Origin: a virus
DNA length: 20,206 nucleotides
IMG/VR virus record: IMGVR_UViG_3300005909_000011
Span: 1-20,206 of that record
Direction: 5' to 3' (one strand)
Shown here: positions 1-19,535 of the stretch, one piece after another
Position numbering within the stretch: the first letter of the stretch is position 1
How the letters are laid out: every line of letters begins with the position of its first letter
Translations under genes and position numbers: made by a program
Notes under the pieces: model-generated
The model's database searches: none
What the model saw: the letters and a program-made list of their open reading frames with translations, nothing else
Told to the model about the DNA's origin: nothing

Positions 1-891
1 ATATTTAAGTTTGATGCGTACAATGAAGAGCTAACAGACGAGAACATCGAAAGATTCATAGAAAATATTTTATCTTCAGAACCGACAAAGAATGATGTTG
101 TTTATATAAGTATACCTGCACTTAACAATAAGGGGCAAACGACCTGTCCATATAGCGATTTGAGAACTACTGAGTACTATCAAAACATAATGGATACTGA
201 AATTAAAAAGGGCAATGCTCACTCATGGTATTCACTTTTCCAACAAGAACCACGCCCAAAAGGCTCAATGCTGTTTGATAACTTTAGCAATTGGTATTAC
301 ATAAAAGATTTGGGGAAGAAACATTTTTCAGGTGGTGTTTCCCATCTTGACCCTGCGGGTAAGGGTAGTAATAATACTTGTTGCATAATAGGAAAAACTC
401 TTGGAAATGATGTTTATGTTCTACCTCAAATGGTTTATACTCCAGAACAACCAAAGGTTTCTAAAGAGCTTTTAGTTGAATTTTTTAAACAAAACCATCT
501 TCACTTCGGAAAAATTACAGGTGAGGCTAATGGTGGTGGAGATCAATATTGTGAAACGCTTAATGAAAGATTAGTTGAAGCAGAAGTTCCAGTTGAGTTT
601 GATGATTATAATATTCTTGGAACTGACCAGAATAAAGAACTAAAGATATTTCTAAGCTCTGATTGGATTCTTTCTCATGTATGGTTACCTGCTGAACTTG
701 ATGAAGATGGTAATAGACAATACGAAGTTGACTCGCCAACTGATAGAGCAATAAAAGCCTTGACAAAATATGTTGGGAAGGTAGAGGGTTACTTTGTAAG
801 AAATCAAGAAGATGACTTTCTTGATTGTTTGTGTGGTATAAAAGATATTGTGGCAGAAGAAGATAATAGTTTTAGCATTGGATATATATAG
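1..891 (+). CDS. terL: Terminase large subunit, C-terminal nuclease part (5' truncated)
   Basis: The reading frame is open from base 1, so the gene starts outside the window; the TTG at 160 is internal and not a real start. The protein would be the DNA-packaging motor that cuts concatemeric phage DNA and translocates it through the portal. The sequence shows the junction typical of the end of the ATPase domain (WYSLFQQEPRPKGSMLF, bases 226-276), then an RNase H-like nuclease: a first acidic residue in HLDPAGKGSN (Asp at 349-351), a second in GEANGGGD (Glu at 523-525) and the DDFLD motif (Asp codons at 811-825). These fit the three-metal-ligand pattern of terminase nucleases. The Walker A and B motifs must lie upstream and cannot be judged. 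The stop is 8 bases before the portal gene, the classical terminase-portal order. Confidence 0.93.
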   Translation: MFKFDAYNEELTDENIERFIENILSSEPTKNDVVYISIPALNNKGQTTCPYSDLRTTEYYQNIMDTEIKKGNAHSWYSLFQQEPRPKGSMLFDNFSNWYYIKDLGKKHFSGGVSHLDPAGKGSNNTCCIIGKTLGNDVYVLPQMVYTPEQPKVSKELLVEFFKQNHLHFGKITGEANGGGDQYCETLNERLVEAEVPVEFDDYNILGTDQNKELKIFLSSDWILSHVWLPAELDEDGNRQYEVDSPTDRAIKALTKYVGKVEGYFVRNQEDDFLDCLCGIKDIVAEEDNSFSIGYI

Positions 892-899
892 GAGAACCT

Positions 900-2387
900 A
901 TGGCAAAGAAGAAAGTTGAAAAAGTAGATATGAATAAGCGTACAGCACAGTTTAGAGAAACAAATCCGAGTGAATTCAATGCATCAGAGTATGAGTATAT
1001 TTACAAAGTCAATAGGACATCTGGAGAGATATCGCTTTATAAAGGTGGTAAGGAAATTCCAAATGATATTCAAACACAATTTGGAGGATTAGGTCAGCCA
1101 GACAATGTTATTAAACCACCATGGGACACGTATGAATTAGAGTGGTTATTAAAATATAATCACACACATAGACGTTGTATGGAGTTAAAGTCAACTCTCG
1201 TGGCAGGATTTGGGTATGACTTTAGAAATAAAAACCATTCTAACTATCCAAAGCTTGAAGCATGGGCGAAGAAACCTAACTCTACGTTTGGAGATACACT
1301 TTCCAATATAGCAGTAAATGTTAAGAGACAGCATTGTAGCTTTGGATATGGACCACTAATAATTAAAAAAGCTTTTGATACAATACAAATGTTTGATGCT
1401 AAAAATACTAAATCAACCTTTGTTATTCCAAATTTTAGAAATGGTAGAAACGTAAACGGTATTCGTAAATATGTTCAACTTTCAAAAAACACAAATGAGA
1501 AAGTAGAATATTTCCCTTATAATGGCAATCCTAAACTTGGAAGAGATTACATGCATTGGTTTGGTTATAAAACTTTATCAAGTTCTTATTATCCTGAACC
1601 TGAATATTTACCTGCTAAAGATAAAATATATGAGGATATCTTCGTTGATAAAAATAATATTGATTTCTTCAAGAATCGTGCGATGGGAGATTTTGTAATA
1701 TTATTTACAGGATCGAAACTTGATGGCAAAACTAAGAATCAAGTATCAAAAGATTTTAAACAAAACATGTCACAATTTGAAGGTGTTGGGAATCAACATA
1801 AAACAATGTACCTTCACTCTCCTGGCAAAGATGCAAAGATACAAGTTGTTGATATTTCCAAAAATGAAGACGGTCAATATTCAAAACGACAGTCTGCTTT
1901 AGAGGCTTCAATAGCAAGATCATGGGGAATTACTCCATCACTTATATCACTTACTAAGAATGGAAGTGGTTTTGGTGGTGGTAGTGTAGCAATAGGAGAT
2001 TTATTCCTTGAAAATCAAATAATGATTAGACCAGAGCAACGTGATTTTGAAGAAGCTATAAATCTTATACTTGAAAGTTTATTTGGGTTTGATCCACAAA
2101 TTAAGTTTAGAACAATAGACACAAACAATCAAAAAGATATGGCAGTTATACTTACTCAAATAGTTTCATCTGGAACACCTATCTCTAAAATTGAAGCGAG
2201 AAGATATATCCACGAACATGGATTAATGGAATTAGAAAATCCAGAAACAATTCCAGAACAGGAAGATTTAATTGAACCGAACGAAAGAACACAAGTTGAT
2301 AACGAAGGTAATATAAAACCAGATGGCGATACGGATTCTAATCAAGATGATATCAATTCGATAGACGAGGATAAATTTAATGAGTAA
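900..2387 (+). CDS. Phage portal protein (PBSX/XkdE-like)
   Basis: This would be the dodecameric portal at the unique capsid vertex, docking the terminase and later the neck. The 495 residues match the usual portal length. Recognisable features are the early VIKPPWDTYELEWLL segment followed by HRRCMELKSTLVAGFGYDF, the entry signature of PBSX-type portals; a middle section with FFKNRAMGDFVILFTGSKLDG; and a C-terminal ARSWGITPSLISL...GFGGGSVAIGDLF followed by the long helix IMIRPEQRDFEEAINLILESLF. The last 50 residues are acidic and low complexity. The ATG is preceded by AGGAG at 890-894, overlapping the end of the terminase gene. Assignment rests on remembered family patterns and gene order, not on a search. 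Confidence 0.92.
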   Translation: MAKKKVEKVDMNKRTAQFRETNPSEFNASEYEYIYKVNRTSGEISLYKGGKEIPNDIQTQFGGLGQPDNVIKPPWDTYELEWLLKYNHTHRRCMELKSTLVAGFGYDFRNKNHSNYPKLEAWAKKPNSTFGDTLSNIAVNVKRQHCSFGYGPLIIKKAFDTIQMFDAKNTKSTFVIPNFRNGRNVNGIRKYVQLSKNTNEKVEYFPYNGNPKLGRDYMHWFGYKTLSSSYYPEPEYLPAKDKIYEDIFVDKNNIDFFKNRAMGDFVILFTGSKLDGKTKNQVSKDFKQNMSQFEGVGNQHKTMYLHSPGKDAKIQVVDISKNEDGQYSKRQSALEASIARSWGITPSLISLTKNGSGFGGGSVAIGDLFLENQIMIRPEQRDFEEAINLILESLFGFDPQIKFRTIDTNNQKDMAVILTQIVSSGTPISKIEARRYIHEHGLMELENPETIPEQEDLIEPNERTQVDNEGNIKPDGDTDSNQDDINSIDEDKFNE

Positions 2388-2447: not shown

Positions 2448-3686
2448 ATGGCAAAAAGGAAATTAAAGAGATATAAAAAGTTAATTATATCTCACGATTG
2501 CTTAGTACCAAAAGGTGCTATGCAAGTTGAATCAGTTTTTAAAGAAGAGAAAGAAGGCATTACAGCTTTTACTAAGCGAATATCCTATGAAGATATGGTT
2601 GTTAAATTCGATGACGAAAAACAAATCATGTATAACATTATGGTTAAATGGAATGATGCTGATAGTGATAACTGGATATTAGACAAGGAAGATATTAGAC
2701 GTGATGCTATGATTGATTTTCAGGCTAATGGTGATAAGGTTTTAAAGTTTACACATAAGAAAGATGAGAATGATGAACCTTACAGCATCGATGCTCATGT
2801 TATGGAATTCTATTATGTGAAAGAAAATGATCCTATCTATCCTGATTATGTTGGTTCGATTGCACGTTCAGCTTATTTTGCAGACGCAGAAGAGTTTGCA
2901 ACGATTAAAGAACTAGAATTTGAAACTTCCATTGAAGGCAAGGCTTGGCTTGAAGAGTTTGAAGTCGAAGAAGAAACCATTAAAGATAAAACGAATAAAG
3001 CTATTCATAAAATTAAAGATCTCTTGAAAACTACATTTAAGTTTGAAGATGGTAAATTAACAAAGAAAAGTTTCAAGAAAATTCTTGATGATGTTACTAA
3101 AGATTTCGACTCGGTTCTTGAAAACAGAAAGAATACTGATATTTACTTTGCAACATCTGCACTTACAACTGCAATCTATAATGCAGAATGGGATTATATT
3201 TATGGACAGACTAAAGATGTTGATGGATTCAAGAAAGAAATTGGGAAGATCTTTAAACAAGCAAAAAAATATTACGATGAAATGAGCTTTGAAGTAGTAA
3301 CAAAGGACATAGTTACTGAAATAAAAAAAGGAGAAGAAGTTATGTTAGAAAAAGCCGAAGTGCAAAAGATGATTGACGATTCTTTAAAGACAGCTATTGG
3401 TCTTGAAGAAGGTCAAACAGTAGCAGATCTAATTAAAACTACTAGCGAAAAATCCCCTCCTGAGCTAGTGGTAAAAGATGCGGAAGGGAATGTGGTTAAA
3501 GACAAAGATGGCAAAGATGTTACTCTTGTTGGATTAGTTACTAAGATGGATGAGAGCTTTAGTGCGTTCAAAACAGAAGTCTCTACTTATATGACAGCGA
3601 ATCCAGAGAAAGTACTTGACCCTGTAGATAACGTTGTTGAGAAAGAAGAAACTGACTCAGAACGCAAAGCCAAATTGGCAATGTAA
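2448..3686 (+). CDS. XkdF-like prohead protease fused to scaffold region
   Basis: This would be the head maturation protease made as a fusion with an internal scaffold, acting inside the procapsid. Residues about 45-180 resemble the XkdF/Peptidase_S78_2 putative serine protease family: a candidate catalytic His at residue 103 (FTHKK), then DAHVMEFYYV, then DYVGSIARS, and a candidate nucleophile Ser at residue 161 in TSIEGKAWLEEF. Residues about 180-298 are charged and helical. Residues 299-412 look like a scaffold and can also be made from an internal start (separate entry). The start ATG follows a GGAGG at 2440-2444. Position between portal and capsid genes supports the role. That the His and Ser are catalytic is inference; no third acidic residue is assigned. 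Confidence 0.8.
   Translation: MAKRKLKRYKKLIISHDCLVPKGAMQVESVFKEEKEGITAFTKRISYEDMVVKFDDEKQIMYNIMVKWNDADSDNWILDKEDIRRDAMIDFQANGDKVLKFTHKKDENDEPYSIDAHVMEFYYVKENDPIYPDYVGSIARSAYFADAEEFATIKELEFETSIEGKAWLEEFEVEEETIKDKTNKAIHKIKDLLKTTFKFEDGKLTKKSFKKILDDVTKDFDSVLENRKNTDIYFATSALTTAIYNAEWDYIYGQTKDVDGFKKEIGKIFKQAKKYYDEMSFEVVTKDIVTEIKKGEEVMLEKAEVQKMIDDSLKTAIGLEEGQTVADLIKTTSEKSPPELVVKDAEGNVVKDKDGKDVTLVGLVTKMDESFSAFKTEVSTYMTANPEKVLDPVDNVVEKEETDSERKAKLAM
3342..3686 (+). CDS. Candidate nested in-frame scaffold protein
   Basis: Within the protease gene, and in the same frame, an AAGGAG at 3328-3333 stands 8 bases upstream of an ATG at 3342 (codon 299 of the long protein). Initiation there would give a 114-residue protein beginning MLEKAEVQKMIDD and ending at the shared stop. 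It is mostly helical and highly charged with no cysteine, as expected for a capsid scaffold, and contains a short repeat-like VVKDAEGNVVKDKDGKD stretch. Nested protease/scaffold genes with a shared C-terminus are established in lambda (C and Nu3). Here the SD and start are seen directly; expression is inferred. The SD falls in the codons for Lys-Lys-Gly-Glu, so chance cannot be excluded. Confidence 0.55.
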   Translation: MLEKAEVQKMIDDSLKTAIGLEEGQTVADLIKTTSEKSPPELVVKDAEGNVVKDKDGKDVTLVGLVTKMDESFSAFKTEVSTYMTANPEKVLDPVDNVVEKEETDSERKAKLAM

Positions 3687-3696
3687 GGGAGGAATA

Positions 3697-5742
3697 ATGG
3701 AACTTACTAAAAAAGAATTACAAGCTCTCGCTATAACTGAACTTGCGATCAAAAGAACTATTGATGGCAGGGGAAAACCAGAAGAAGCAGTTAAGGAAAA
3801 TTATATTAACAAGACTGCTGCCGAAGCATTACTATTCTTGGGATTAGACCCAATGACTAGTTATGGCAAACCTGTTTCTAAGGTTTATCAAGAGTATTAC
3901 AATGTTGAAAAAGCTGTTGGCGATTTCTCTAGTTACTACCAGCATTTAACAAACTGGAATCGTAACGATCTAATTACCGGTTCAAGAGCAAAGGAATATT
4001 GGGATTTAGTTTTTAATTATTCTTCTGAGTTTATGAATAGAATTACAATTAAAAGCGGTGATGAATTAACTTACCCTCTTGATATTTATGCATCTATTGA
4101 AGAAAACTTTATTGATAGTTTAGCTGTTGGTTCTCAACCTACAGGTGCTCAACTTAAAGATCAAGGTGGTGTAATTGGTAAAGAATTGTTTGCAAGACGT
4201 ATGGAAAATCAATTCAATCTTCCAGAACTTGATATCATAAACAATCTTTATAACACTAAATTTGAAGATGAGATTACTGCTAGACGTCTAATTGGTATTA
4301 ACAATGACTTACTTAGAGTTTGGACTAATGGCACAAGTGATGATTATACAAGCGTTACATGGGCTACATTTACTCATAATGATATGTATAGACTTGGAAT
4401 TGGTTGGTTGAAAAATCTTCAAGATGGTAACGGTTCATGGACTAATAGTAATGCAAATGCTATTGTTATTGGTGCATTGGGTGATAGAGTTACTGCTAAC
4501 AAAATTGAGATTACAGGTATTGGTTGGATTACAGATTATACTTCTGATTGGTCTTCTGTTGTTGACGGATGGCTTGGTGTTACTTCTACATTATCAATTG
4601 CAAGTGGATTGAAAATTGCTAATGCTGGATATGCACGTAAAGATGGTATTGCTGTTACTCCTAATTCTAAATGTAAATTTGTATTTACTGAGATTGGAGA
4701 AGATGGAAGTTCTAGTGTTTACGGTGCAGTATTGGGTGCTGATGGTACAACTGTTCTTGGTTCATCTACCGCTATCACAGGTACAGGAACATCTCATACG
4801 GTTGAATTCTTCTCAGGAAACAATAACTTTGTTCAGTTAAGAATTTATCAGGCTGCTGCAAAATATACTACTGTTACAACTGCAACTGCTATTGTAACTG
4901 AATATAAAGTAACTCGTACAGGCGATGATATTATTGACTATATGGATACAATGATTAAGAATCAACCATCAAAATATAAAGATCCATCTAAAACAGTATT
5001 TATTATGGGCTTAACTGATGTAGAAAGTTATGCAGATGCTAAAGGTGAAGCTGTTAAGGTTGTTGGTGGAATGGCAATTGGTGTTAATACTACAGTTAAA
5101 GATCAATGGCGTGTTAATGGTGATATTCCTCGTCATAAAGGTTATGAAGTAATTTATAATCCAATGATGGATTCAATTAGTGAATACAAAACCTATGGTG
5201 GTTCAGCATTAGCTGGATCTATCTTATTCTGCGATCCTAAAGACCTTTGGGCTTATGTTCTTGATAAGATTAGAAAACATCGTGAAGAGAAAGCTAGAGC
5301 AACAACTGGTGGTTCAGGTATTGAGTTTACAGATGTTATTTTCTCTGATGCTCAAACTGCTCCAAACGAAAGAATTGGTATTGCTTATTACGGTGCTGTC
5401 GTTGAAAGCATTATATTAATGCAAACTGTTGCTCTTAAATCTACTGTATGTGTAAGCGGAACTACAACTTCAGCTGCAGGACTTGTACCTTATTGCGATA
5501 CTAAAGGTGCTAGAATGTTTATGACACTTACTTCCAATGTTGCTGATCTTGGTACTCTTGCATTGGCATTAGCTGGAGTAACTGCAGGAGATGTTTGGGA
5601 AATTAAAACTGGTGTACTCGAAGGGACTGCACTAGGACAAAGTGTTTTAACTGCTGCTGCTCATAGTTTCAGAGCATTTAAAACAATTGATGGTGTAGAA
5701 GTTCTTGGAAAGAGTGCAGTAACAGCCTGTACCTTTGCATAA
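3697..5742 (+). CDS. Major capsid protein (HK97 fold, XkdG-like) with inserted beta-rich domain
   Basis: The start is the ATG at 3697, behind GGGAGG at 3687-3692, not the upstream in-frame ATG at 3634 inside the protease gene; this gives 681 residues, large for this protein. N-terminal residues 1-243 hold a helical arm, a candidate E-loop around SGDELTYPLDIYASIEENF and the segment ending RLGIGWLKNLQDG. The matching helical continuation DDIIDYMDTMIKNQPSKY resumes at residue 410, followed by TVFIMG and RHKGYEVIYNPMM, typical of the P- and A-domain core of XkdG-like capsids. Residues about 246-408 are a Ser/Thr/Gly-rich beta-type insertion resembling carbohydrate-binding folds. Residues about 583-681 form another beta-rich tail domain. 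A terminator follows, as expected for a highly expressed gene. Confidence 0.88.
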   Translation: MELTKKELQALAITELAIKRTIDGRGKPEEAVKENYINKTAAEALLFLGLDPMTSYGKPVSKVYQEYYNVEKAVGDFSSYYQHLTNWNRNDLITGSRAKEYWDLVFNYSSEFMNRITIKSGDELTYPLDIYASIEENFIDSLAVGSQPTGAQLKDQGGVIGKELFARRMENQFNLPELDIINNLYNTKFEDEITARRLIGINNDLLRVWTNGTSDDYTSVTWATFTHNDMYRLGIGWLKNLQDGNGSWTNSNANAIVIGALGDRVTANKIEITGIGWITDYTSDWSSVVDGWLGVTSTLSIASGLKIANAGYARKDGIAVTPNSKCKFVFTEIGEDGSSSVYGAVLGADGTTVLGSSTAITGTGTSHTVEFFSGNNNFVQLRIYQAAAKYTTVTTATAIVTEYKVTRTGDDIIDYMDTMIKNQPSKYKDPSKTVFIMGLTDVESYADAKGEAVKVVGGMAIGVNTTVKDQWRVNGDIPRHKGYEVIYNPMMDSISEYKTYGGSALAGSILFCDPKDLWAYVLDKIRKHREEKARATTGGSGIEFTDVIFSDAQTAPNERIGIAYYGAVVESIILMQTVALKSTVCVSGTTTSAAGLVPYCDTKGARMFMTLTSNVADLGTLALALAGVTAGDVWEIKTGVLEGTALGQSVLTAAAHSFRAFKTIDGVEVLGKSAVTACTFA

Positions 5743-5795: not shown

Positions 5796-5816
5796 AAAAG
5801 TTTAGTGGAGGATAAA

Positions 5817-6137
5817 GTGGCAGGGAAAAAGAAAATGTTTAAAGACAGAGTTGAAGAAGCTAAAGTGTTTGTTGAAGAAGGTAATCTTAAAAAAGCAATT
5901 TCAACATTAAATAAGGCTATTGATAATGAACCAGAAAAAGATGTTGATGATAAAATCAATAACTGGATTAAAGAGCTTGAATTAATAGAAGATGATAATC
6001 CACTCGGAAAGGAATTAGAAGTTATTTCTTTTAGAGTTACTGCACCATTCCTAAGAAACGGTGTATGCTTTGAAGTTGGAAACACTATAAATCTTCCAAG
6101 TAAAAACAATCAAGCTAATATCGAACCAATGGAGTAA
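5817..6137 (+). CDS. Small protein after capsid gene, helical N-terminus, unknown function
   Basis: I chose the GTG at 5817 because GGAGG at 5807-5811 lies 5 bases before it; the in-frame GTG at 5805 overlaps that SD and is unlikely. The product is 106 residues, starting MAGKKKMF. Residues about 8-45 form a TPR-like helical pair (RVEEAKVFVEEGNLKKAIST, then NKAIDNEP). The C-terminal 40 residues (ISFRVTAPFLRNGVCFEVGN, then TINLP) are a beta segment of the sort seen in small head-associated phage proteins whose pattern is 'fixed strand, Gly-rich turn, LP, Ala'. The same pattern recurs in the next gene. It may be a head decoration or connector accessory protein; no function is established from the sequence. 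Confidence 0.75.
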   Translation: MAGKKKMFKDRVEEAKVFVEEGNLKKAISTLNKAIDNEPEKDVDDKINNWIKELELIEDDNPLGKELEVISFRVTAPFLRNGVCFEVGNTINLPSKNNQANIEPME

Positions 6138-14125: not shown

Positions 14126-17100
14126 ATGTTATATGTAAAGTTTATACAGAATTGGAGTAATAGCGAGCTTACAAATACAGGAACACCAGAAACTCCTGCT
14201 TATGCTTATGATGAACCTAAAAATACTTCTGTTTATTCTGATGGTTTAAAACTTAAAGATATAGATTATGATGCTGAAAGCTACATGGCAGATGATTTCT
14301 TTCTGCGTGAACCACGAGAAGCTAAAATTGAATTATTTAGAGATGATGATGATTGGTTAAGAGATAACTTTCTTTATCAAAACGATAATGAGATAAACCA
14401 CGTTCTTTATATGGATGAAGATGGAACTATTTTAGAATATGAAGGAATAGACCCAGATTTATCTATTGGTGATCAGTTAGATGGCGGAACAATAGATGAT
14501 AAAGAAGTTCTTATACAACAGTTTTCTAAAATAATAGTAGAGATATGGGATACTAATAGTGGAATAGTTTTTACAGGATTAGTCGATAAGTCTCAAACAT
14601 CTGCTACTCATAAAAGGATTACATTAAATTGTGTAGATTTTACTGGATTAATAAAAATATTTGGTGAACAATTAATTAAGATAATTATTGATGACCCAGA
14701 TATAGAAGATTATTATCAATTTATAGTTTCAATAAATATTATTGATGAATTATTTGACAAGATAAAGAATTTTACAAAACTTGAAATAACAACAAGTAAT
14801 GGTGTTGAAAATTATACAAACGGGATAGTAACAAATAATAATAATAATTTAGACATTAATGATTATGATATAATTTGGGAGCCAGATAATCAATATTATA
14901 ATGGTGATGTCGAGACATTTCAAGACGTTAGTATATTTGCAAGTGATGAAGAAAAAGCTTTTATTATTTATAAATGTTTTACGTGGAGCAAAACGTATGA
15001 AACATCAGATCCACAACAATATACAGTTACGGATTTCTATCTTACAATATTAGCATATGAGTGGAACGTTGATGGAATTTCTGGGGTAAATTATGCTACA
15101 TATTTATTAGCTTATCATGGTCCTCCAGGTGATATTGTGTATATGACAGCTATAAATGCCGTTAAACAATTTCAAACAGTAAAACTTATGGCTGCTGCAT
15201 TTATAGATGATGATCTATTAATTAATTATGTTGCAATAAATTCTAGTGGGAATTATGATATTATACAGATAACACAAGATAGATATTCTGTAGCAATACC
15301 AATTTATGCAGATACTTATGAGTATATGGAATTATTTAAAACAATTCTTTTCTTAAATATTTTAACTATTTATGCTGATGGTAATGGAAATATTAATGTT
15401 AAAAGTAAATATTTTGAAGATGAAGTAGAAGGAGCATCAACTATAATAAACGAAAGAGATATAATGGATGGCTATACTTTAGGTGCTATAGAAAAGGATG
15501 AGATTGAAATGTCTGATGCTTTAGAGCCAATTTGGTATGATACAGAGACCGAAGGTGCATTATACGATAACTTAGATAATAAAATGAAAGAAGAGTTCTC
15601 AGAATTGTTTATTAGTAGGTTTCCTATCGAATTCAATGGTAGTATTAAATACAATTCAGTTGATATTGGAACTATTAATGATATAATTATTGGAAGTAAG
15701 TTAGAATTTTTTGATAGAGATTGGATAGTTATTTCAAAACAATTAAATAAAACTAATTTTTCAACAAAAATAAAAGCTTTTGGATTAGGGGAAATATCTA
15801 CATACATACCAGGACCATTACTACTTACTATGCCATTAATTAGAAATGAAGAATTAAATAATACATTAGACTTAGCTGCTGGAACAGAGATTACTGTTTC
15901 TTCAATTGATACTGATGCAAATACAATAACATTATCTTGGTTACCAGATATTGTAACCGTTGTTTCGCCAACAGTTGGTAAGGAATGGGCATTATTAAAT
16001 CTTAATAATTTCTCTGTAGCTGACCCGGGACTTACTGGTGATTATGAAGATATAATGAAAATAACAAGTGGAACATATTCAACAAAAGTATTAAATTATA
16101 CGGCAGTTCTTGGAGCTGAGGGTAATTGGAATGTTGGGGATAGGGTTGCACTATATAATGCACTTGATACTGGGTGGGATTGGAAGGTTGACCCATTAAT
16201 AGAAGAATCTGGAGCTGGATGGCGGGAAGTGTATGTTGCTCCATCAGGTATTTTTCAGAAGATAGATGGAACATATGTAATGCTTGTACTTGGTAAAAAT
16301 TCAGCTAACGTTAAATCCATTGGTGCTTTTTCGTGTAATGATCCATCATTAGAATCATGGAGTGTTATGAATGGGGATGCTGCTATCTTTACTCATGGAG
16401 CTTATGCTTGGTGTGCAAATAGTATTTCAATGTACAAGTGTATGCTTGTTGAAGGAGAAACGGATAGATATATTGCTTACGTTGCGGGTGATAATGCAGG
16501 TTCTGTTTGGAATATAGGTTATGTAAAATTTAATGAAGACTTTAGTAATATAGTATGGTCTGCTGATTCTATAATTGATTCAAGTGCTTATGCCGATGGA
16601 TTTACAGGTGCATCTGTTATAAATCATAATGGTATGTATAGAATGATGGTAGTTGGGAGAAGTGCTGATATATTAACAGAAGCATGGGAAGTTGTAGAGG
16701 CAACATCAACAACACAAGAAGGACCGTTTATTAATCAGGAAGTTATTATGGCTGGAATTACCGATAATCAGGGTATCTTTAATAGTAGTCATACGGATGC
16801 ATTTTCTTATTTCAAATATGATGGAAAACTATATTGTATTATTGGAGGAACATCAAGATGGAGAGAAAGCGGAAACAAAGTAAATAGAATATATGGGTTA
16901 ATGAAATTTAATGATAGTACGGAGACATGGACAATATTAGACCAATCTCCACTTTTTATGAATCCACTGGCTGGTTATTATATGTGGGGGGCTGATTGGG
17001 CATGGGGGCAAGACCATCTCGGTGGTACTCCAACTCTTAATTATTATAATGGAAAATTATATAATTATATGACTGCTAATAACGGTACTGATGCATATAA

Positions 17101-17146
17101 GATATGTCAATTTTCAATAGAGATGGATGATGAATTTGAACTTTAA
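14126..17146 (+). CDS. Tail hub protein with C-terminal five-bladed propeller-like domain
   Basis: The ATG directly follows the tape measure stop. Residues 1-560 resemble a tail hub or Tal-like baseplate protein: VEIWDTNSGIVFTGLVDKSQ, a block ending in NCVDFTGLIKIFGEQL, a second half with GNGNINVKSKYFEDEVEGAS, and FDRDWIVISKQLNKTNFSTK near residue 532. Residues about 560-680 are a beta-rich linker. From residue 681 (DTGWDWKVDP) to the end, five units recur with an Asp/Asn-Gly-x-Tyr/Leu strand motif at residues 714, 780, 835, 899 and 975. The second unit is the weakest, with DRY in place of DG. Together with FSCNDPSLESW and the first-blade pattern GAGWREVYVAPSG, this resembles five-bladed propellers of the GH32/43/130 type. 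The domain probably binds, and could cleave, a surface glycan. Catalytic residues were not identified. Confidence 0.75.
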   Translation: MLYVKFIQNWSNSELTNTGTPETPAYAYDEPKNTSVYSDGLKLKDIDYDAESYMADDFFLREPREAKIELFRDDDDWLRDNFLYQNDNEINHVLYMDEDGTILEYEGIDPDLSIGDQLDGGTIDDKEVLIQQFSKIIVEIWDTNSGIVFTGLVDKSQTSATHKRITLNCVDFTGLIKIFGEQLIKIIIDDPDIEDYYQFIVSINIIDELFDKIKNFTKLEITTSNGVENYTNGIVTNNNNNLDINDYDIIWEPDNQYYNGDVETFQDVSIFASDEEKAFIIYKCFTWSKTYETSDPQQYTVTDFYLTILAYEWNVDGISGVNYATYLLAYHGPPGDIVYMTAINAVKQFQTVKLMAAAFIDDDLLINYVAINSSGNYDIIQITQDRYSVAIPIYADTYEYMELFKTILFLNILTIYADGNGNINVKSKYFEDEVEGASTIINERDIMDGYTLGAIEKDEIEMSDALEPIWYDTETEGALYDNLDNKMKEEFSELFISRFPIEFNGSIKYNSVDIGTINDIIIGSKLEFFDRDWIVISKQLNKTNFSTKIKAFGLGEISTYIPGPLLLTMPLIRNEELNNTLDLAAGTEITVSSIDTDANTITLSWLPDIVTVVSPTVGKEWALLNLNNFSVADPGLTGDYEDIMKITSGTYSTKVLNYTAVLGAEGNWNVGDRVALYNALDTGWDWKVDPLIEESGAGWREVYVAPSGIFQKIDGTYVMLVLGKNSANVKSIGAFSCNDPSLESWSVMNGDAAIFTHGAYAWCANSISMYKCMLVEGETDRYIAYVAGDNAGSVWNIGYVKFNEDFSNIVWSADSIIDSSAYADGFTGASVINHNGMYRMMVVGRSADILTEAWEVVEATSTTQEGPFINQEVIMAGITDNQGIFNSSHTDAFSYFKYDGKLYCIIGGTSRWRESGNKVNRIYGLMKFNDSTETWTILDQSPLFMNPLAGYYMWGADWAWGQDHLGGTPTLNYYNGKLYNYMTANNGTDAYKICQFSIEMDDEFEL

Positions 17147-19062: not shown

Positions 19063-19203
19063 ATGAATGTAAACTCTACTCTAACTGATAGATCAGTAAA
19101 CTCTTCATTTACGGATAAGAGTATAAAATCAGTATTTACTGATAAGAGTATAAATAGTGAATTAACAAAATTAGAATTAGGAGGTGAAATAGGATGGCAA
19201 TAG
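19063..19203 (+). CDS. 46-residue protein built on 9-residue TDKS repeats
   Basis: An ATG at 19063 follows AAGGATA at 19052-19058 and opens a 46-codon frame ending in TAG at 19201-19203, overlapping the next gene's ATG at 19194. Residues 6-32 consist of three 9-residue units: TLTDRSVNS, SFTDKSIKS and VFTDKSINS, then ELTK. The repetition is at the protein level with codon variation between units, which suggests selection on the peptide. Its place among fibre and baseplate genes hints at a short beta-helical or beta-strand appendage, but no family is recognised. The end of the ORF carries the SD for the next gene (AGGAGGTGA), so the two are likely coupled. Confidence 0.65.
   Translation: MNVNSTLTDRSVNSSFTDKSIKSVFTDKSINSELTKLELGGEIGWQ
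19078..19158 (+). repeat. Three in-frame 27-base tandem repeats
   Basis: Three consecutive 27-base units encode the 9-residue repeats above. Units two and three share GATAAGAGTATAAA exactly; the first unit is more diverged (GATAGATCAGTAAA at the same place). The gradient suggests stepwise duplication. Confidence 0.75.
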
Positions 19204-19535
19204 CAAAAGATGCAATTAAAATTTATAGAGGAGATACATTTTCTTTTTCTATAGCTGTAACAAATTATGATGATACGGTATTTGATTTAACAGGTTATAC
19301 GCTTACGTTTACGGCAAGAGTTGGTTTAACAGGAACTGCTATTATATCAGAAGACTTTGTATGCACAACAAATCCAGAATTGGGAATTGCTTATGGAGTA
19401 TTAAGTTCTGCAATGACTAATTTAGATATTAAGAAATTTCAATATGATATACAAATAGCTAATGCAGATGATCCTGCAAAGGTTTATACAATAGCAATAG
19501 GTCAATTAATAATCATGCGAGATTTGACAGTATGA
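19194..19535 (+). CDS. BppU N-terminal-like baseplate protein
   Basis: The ATG follows a near-perfect SD (AGGAGGTGA, 19179-19187). The 113-residue product has the pattern of the N-terminal domain of phage upper baseplate proteins: IKIYRGDTFSFSIAVTNYDD, then FDLTGYTLTFTARVG, ELGIAYGVLSSAMTNL, KFQYDIQIANADDPAKVYTI and IGQLIIMRDLTV. The GD at the start, the 'DLTGYT' strand, the 'yDIQ' strand and the closing 'tI..G.l.v..D.T' are characteristic of this Ig-like fold. In lactococcal phages the domain anchors BppU to the baseplate; here it stands alone without the receptor-binding arm, so it may recruit another fibre protein. Confidence 0.7.
   Translation: MAIAKDAIKIYRGDTFSFSIAVTNYDDTVFDLTGYTLTFTARVGLTGTAIISEDFVCTTNPELGIAYGVLSSAMTNLDIKKFQYDIQIANADDPAKVYTIAIGQLIIMRDLTV

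Follow-up and report, generated by a model that had tools for sequence, protein, structure and literature searches.

Accessory domains in major capsid proteins (MCPs) of the HK97 fold are a known kind, and sugar-binding decorations of viral heads are likewise known. The insertion domain (I-domain) of P22, MCP residues 226-344, sits within the A-domain of its HK97-fold coat protein, and crAss001 and T4 have insertion domains at the E-loop, also in the core of the capsid protein (PMC10172136). The Ig-like (BIG2) domain of phi29 gp8 is thought to have been horizontally acquired (PMC11476376), head decoration proteins make glycan contacts (PMC7602432), and a glycan-binding domain on the turret of HFTV1 has been proposed as the first contact with the host (PMC12494034). 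Here we describe an XkdG-type MCP with a large domain inserted in its core, encoded on a 20,206-nucleotide stretch of viral DNA (IMG/VR record IMGVR_UViG_3300005909_000011, positions 1 to 20,206), which we call the window. The gene lies at 3697..5742 (681 residues, an open reading frame, assigned by hhalign match and gene order) and the insert, residues 246-408, at 4432..4920; coordinates written with two dots are on the plus strand. We favour the reading that this is an accessory domain resembling a carbohydrate-binding module (CBM), carried on the outer face of the capsid and binding glycans weakly, and give that explanation as a whole a probability of about 0.5.

The evidence for an insertion comes from removing it. 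The intact MCP had no convincing match in Pfam, PHROGs, PDB sequences (phmmer), phages or plasmids, and in a first hhalign comparison with six XkdG-type MCPs the A-domain matched weakly (E 0.0037, probability 9%). We built a query profile from three sequences, those of the window and of two relatives (L010 and L011), removed residues 246-408 and joined the flanks. This profile matched a set of 8 XkdG MCPs with an hhalign probability of 63.4% (E 6.8e-5) and a set of 22 XkdG-type MCPs with 65.7% (E 5.8e-5). Against the same 22, the probability was 15.8% (E 1.6e-3) for the intact profile and 0.4% (E 0.14) for the isolated insert. These probabilities are only moderate because the query profile holds three sequences; the XkdG profile itself recovers solved MCPs (5tjt at E 2.2e-8). 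The alignment of the insert-removed profile ran continuously across the junction and into both flanks: GIGWLKNLQDG lies opposite the DGWIK segment, and DDIIDYMDTMIKNQPSKY opposite the first helix of what we read as the A-domain of the HK97 fold.

Deleting 163 residues at 19 other places scored between 0.7 and 41.6%. The best of these control deletions, 260-422 (41.6%), mostly overlaps the insert and was followed by 235-397 (27.4%), with all others at or below 22.3%; E exceeded 6e-4 in 18 of the 19 and was 2.7e-4 for the one that largely overlaps the insert. A reversed-target control scored 0.4%. The best-scoring edges were 244-256 at the start and 395-412 at the end, and as starts at 244 and 256 scored slightly above 246, the boundaries are defined only to within some ten residues. 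Judged by profile homology, the protein is an XkdG-type HK97-fold MCP, recognisable as such once the insert is removed, and residues 246-408 are supported as an extra domain in the capsid core relative to the wider family. The first-pass annotation of this DNA had proposed a domain of about 160 residues inserted in the capsid core, and this is borne out both by the continuous XkdG match that returns on removal and by the spacing between the GW and P.KY motifs, 186 residues as against 27-55. It had also described the helix containing GIGWLKNLQDG as interrupted. No helix break is demonstrable, and in the profile alignment the insertion falls in the loop that leads from the DGWIK segment to the A-domain helix after it.

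That spacing also gives the size and distribution of the insert. From GW to P.KY, 27-38 residues intervene in 21 of the 22 XkdG MCPs (55 in HSTV-1) and 30-34 in all 80 further XkdG loci; since the span typical of the family is 27-38 and that of the window 186, the insert comes to about 155 residues. Alignment with XkdG MCPs lacking the insert, a check that the annotation had proposed, found the wider family without it, the loop being 27-55 residues long in 102 of 102 cases. All three relatives with a readable region carry it: L006/L012, nearly identical, L010, 77-78% identical, and L011, which is partial. The record of L007 ends upstream of the insertion site and falls outside this count. Viral-contig scans with the portal, the MCP or the insert as query returned the same small clade only and found no insert-free member of it, so that we infer the gain of the insert from the wider family. 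No named relative turned up in Pfam, PHROGs, the PDB, phages or plasmids when the whole MCP or the insert served as sequence query (best PHROGs E for the insert, 0.17). Two scans of bacterial and archaeal genomes, for which MCP and portal alignments were used, gave 58 and 313 pattern matches, none of which was confirmed as a relative. Two other candidates were set aside: PDB profile matches to WD40 repeats came from one 26-residue stretch summed over repeats, each insignificant singly, and a match to Flavobacterium phage pippi8-1 (E 2) was to a gene annotated by PF04233 similarity.

Conservation divides the insert into two parts. The window and L010 are 87% identical in the core on each side, with 151/173 residues over 73-245, within the N-terminal and first core part of the protein (residues 1-245; 3697..4431), and 145/167 over 409-575, which profile alignment and identity to L010 delimit as the A-domain plus the last part of the XkdG-like core (4921..5421). 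The 32 residues with which the insert begins (246-277; 4432..4527) are conserved to the same degree (28/32, 88%) and may form a linker or anchoring strand, and we therefore take the variable module, a putative beta-sandwich, to be residues 278-408 (4528..4920), where identity is 57% (74/129, with 6 gap columns). By the counting method, the ratio of nonsynonymous to synonymous substitution rates (dN/dS) between the window and L010 is 0.639 in 278-408 and 0.118 and 0.171 in the core, with dS in 278-408 not elevated over the core. Against L011, the ratio is 0.278 in the covered part of 278-408 and 0.084 in the core; the values for 246-277 (0.465 against L010, from few changes, and 0.12 against L011) are uninformative. 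Within this variation W277, Y281, W292, Y312 and Y342 are invariant across the three relatives. The pattern of residues 278-408 fits an exposed or weakly constrained module.

Two other explanations have to be weighed against this pattern. The insert could stabilise the capsid, an outer beta-sandwich bridging adjacent subunits as the crAss001 I-domain does, without sugar binding. I-domains are named among the means of capsid stabilisation (PMC7602432), and conservation of residues 246-277 at core level would suit such a role. However, a dN/dS of 0.64 in 278-408, set against 0.12-0.17 in the core, and the small indels among relatives in the same residues would be unexpected for a tight contact surface, and we regard this alternative as real but unlikely. 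A passive spacer, in the sense of a beta-rich domain acquired by recombination and tolerated with little function, would accommodate the raised dN/dS, as well as the behaviour of the CBM5/12 inserts described below for another XkdG group. Yet the ratio does not reach 1, the reading frame remains open, the domain is retained in all three relatives and the W and Y residues listed above do not vary, all of which makes a spacer of little function improbable.

What the insert resembles is best judged from its predicted fold. Modelled alone, it showed seven strands in its second half (mean predicted local distance difference test, pLDDT, 51; predicted template modelling score 0.61). Foldseek searches of the PDB with this model gave 1561 matches at E <= 10 and 7 at E <= 1e-3. 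Four of the seven are titled CBMs (E 5.8e-4 to 9.6e-4), namely an alginate CBM, a porphyran CBM and two xyloglucan-binding CBMs (4bj0, 3jxs); the others are two chains of the arabinanase EndoMA1 and one tailspike of phage CBA120. Matches in a viral structure library included proteins named CenC-like carbohydrate-binding and, from Bacillus phage Basilisk, a minor structural protein. From the model, the larger part of the insert is likely a jelly-roll beta-sandwich, and a CBM-like nature is plausible; its standing as a true CBM is unproven. The likeness to carbohydrate-binding beta-sandwich modules seen in the first-pass annotation therefore stands in part, carried by a low-confidence model and four of seven PDB matches but not by any match to a CBM family profile. 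The same annotation had suggested looking for the insert in other virion proteins; no second copy was found in the other proteins of the window, L006, L010 or L011 (best E 0.54).

Several results count against a CBM-like domain displayed on the capsid surface. The insert model is weak, with 40 of 174 residues at pLDDT >= 70 under the mean of 51. VIA-align ranked a subtilisin-type jelly-roll domain (Z 9.2) and GOLD domains (Z 8.8) at the top, with CBM4-2 at Z 7.5, in a range (Z < 8) where the tool warns of a possibly common arrangement. The insert had no Pfam match at E <= 1, CBM families included, and the PF02018 (CBM4/9) profile did not match it at E <= 10. It is represented by three independent sequences only. 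Finally, an AlphaFold2 model of the full-length capsid protein, made from a four-sequence alignment, has a mean pLDDT of 32 and gives no usable view of outward projection.

We nevertheless favour weak glycan binding from the outer capsid face, which could have come about and work as follows. A phage lineage would have gained an accessory domain in the loop that opens the A-domain of its XkdG-type HK97-fold MCP. The domain would stand on the outer capsid face of every subunit, in what we assume to be hundreds of copies. By binding glycans weakly at many points, whether on the host surface, in the extracellular matrix or on particles, it could keep the phage close to its host until the tail engages. 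Comparison with known insertion domains makes an outer placement probable. Because head decoration and turret proteins offer analogies, we infer low-affinity, many-copy glycan contact as the favoured role. Mucus binding, which the annotation had raised, was dropped as a claim, since nothing in the analysis bears on mucus. The insert might instead be the place where another protein, a decoration or a fibre, docks on the head, much as gp8.5 does on the phi29 BIG2 domain. A small gene of no known family follows the MCP (5805-6137) and could encode such a partner, but no head-fibre or decoration protein was recognised among the genes scanned (Pfam, PHROGs); docking, too, is a real alternative, although we think it decidedly unlikely.

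Modules near this site also occur in another group of XkdG-type MCPs. The MCP of Dulem virus 37 (PP511443) carries a Pfam CBM_5_12 module (E 3.9e-6) between LNGDES and NDGWIK, ahead of the segment that the window insert follows. We scanned IMG/VR with this MCP type and considered the best 80 of 107 relatives (L044-L123); both query rows carry the module, so the scan may favour carriers. Among these best 80, a longer loop before NDGWIK was present in 12 loci and absent from 68. All six of the 12 long-loop loci that were tested matched CBM_5_12, five of them above the curated cut-off, and two phage records (L020 and L030) also belong to the CBM5/12-bearing set. We placed 67 distinct rows on a quick tree, 11 of them carrying the module. 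Its distribution there takes a minimum of 10 changes, 6 of them forced by well-supported branches, which is no fewer than in shuffles (mean 10.4). The module is scattered over the tree and evidently dispensable, and within-gene recombination could contribute to the scatter. Close pairs differ in its presence: L044 and L046 share 95.3% identity across 322 residues and have 43 gap columns at the module site, and L052 and L060, a further pair with and without it, are 92.4% identical over 303 residues.

These comparisons support the view that the A-domain entrance of XkdG MCPs tolerates and exchanges such modules, in this case at a neighbouring site and from a different family. The annotation had called the insertion point unusual, which is too strong given the core insertions of P22, T4 and crAss001 and the nearby CBM5/12 module. 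We tentatively raise the possibility, which we hold with some doubt, that sugar-binding modules have landed repeatedly at the A-domain junction of XkdG MCPs, with CBM5/12 modules gained and lost between close relatives, and that a larger, CBM4-like one became fixed in the window lineage. In that case the exchangeable surface for adhesion would be the shell of the capsid and not the tail or a decoration protein.

The neighbourhood shows the gene order of XkdG-type loci, with terminase, portal, XkdF-type gene and MCP in succession. These are the nuclease part of the large terminase, a fragment called from the first start codon of its reading frame (160..891; phrog_38, E 5.6e-15), the portal protein gene (900..2387; phrog_12, E 3.3e-14) and an XkdF-type protease/scaffold gene (2448..3686). 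In L011, the gene directly upstream of the MCP is an XkdF protease (Pfam S78_2, E 6.1e-41), which the window gene resembles over the C-terminal half (blastp 35%, E 2e-26). The S78_2 protease domain, strong in L011, was not detected by Pfam in the window gene, and the XkdF-type gene of L010 (2896-4131) is in the same state, with C-terminal XkdF likeness and S78_2 undetected; the domain appears to have been replaced or to have strongly diverged in both. The MCP itself extends about 106 residues past the part aligned to XkdG MCPs (residues 576-681; 5422..5739), a segment with no Pfam match above cut-off. Farther downstream, a 1006-residue protein (14126-17146) directly follows the tape measure gene (PhageMin_Tail). 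Its C-terminal part resembles a beta-propeller glycosidase by eye, and it had no convincing match in Pfam or PHROG. A small protein at 19194-19535 has a sub-threshold match to BppU_N (E 0.017), presumably a baseplate protein family.

Our searches of the open-licence PMC literature found no description of a CBM inside an MCP core, nor of presence-absence polymorphism of CBM5/12 in XkdG MCPs. With a CBM-like domain built into the shell protein, every subunit would carry an adhesin and no separate gene for a decoration protein would be needed. The near-identical MCP pairs with and without CBM5/12 are natural matched pairs for the function of a capsid-borne sugar-binding domain.

Among the systems compared, Dulem virus 37 and its relatives share with the window an XkdG-type MCP that bears a carbohydrate-binding-like module near the start of the A-domain. 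They differ in that about 43 extra residues, of CBM5/12, precede NDGWIK, whereas the window insert of about 155 residues follows the segment and matches no family. The P22 I-domain likewise lies within an HK97-fold coat protein, in the A-domain, and the insertion domains of crAss001 and T4 differ in lying at the E-loop rather than at the start of the A-domain (PMC10172136). The main capsid protein of phi29, gp8, also bears an extra beta-sandwich (PMC11476376), but one of Ig-like fold that has cellular homologues and contacts a decoration protein (PMC7602432). HFTV1 displays a galactose-binding-like domain on its head with a proposed grip on glycans, as we suggest for the window insert; there the domain sits on a separate turret protein and not inside the MCP (PMC12494034).
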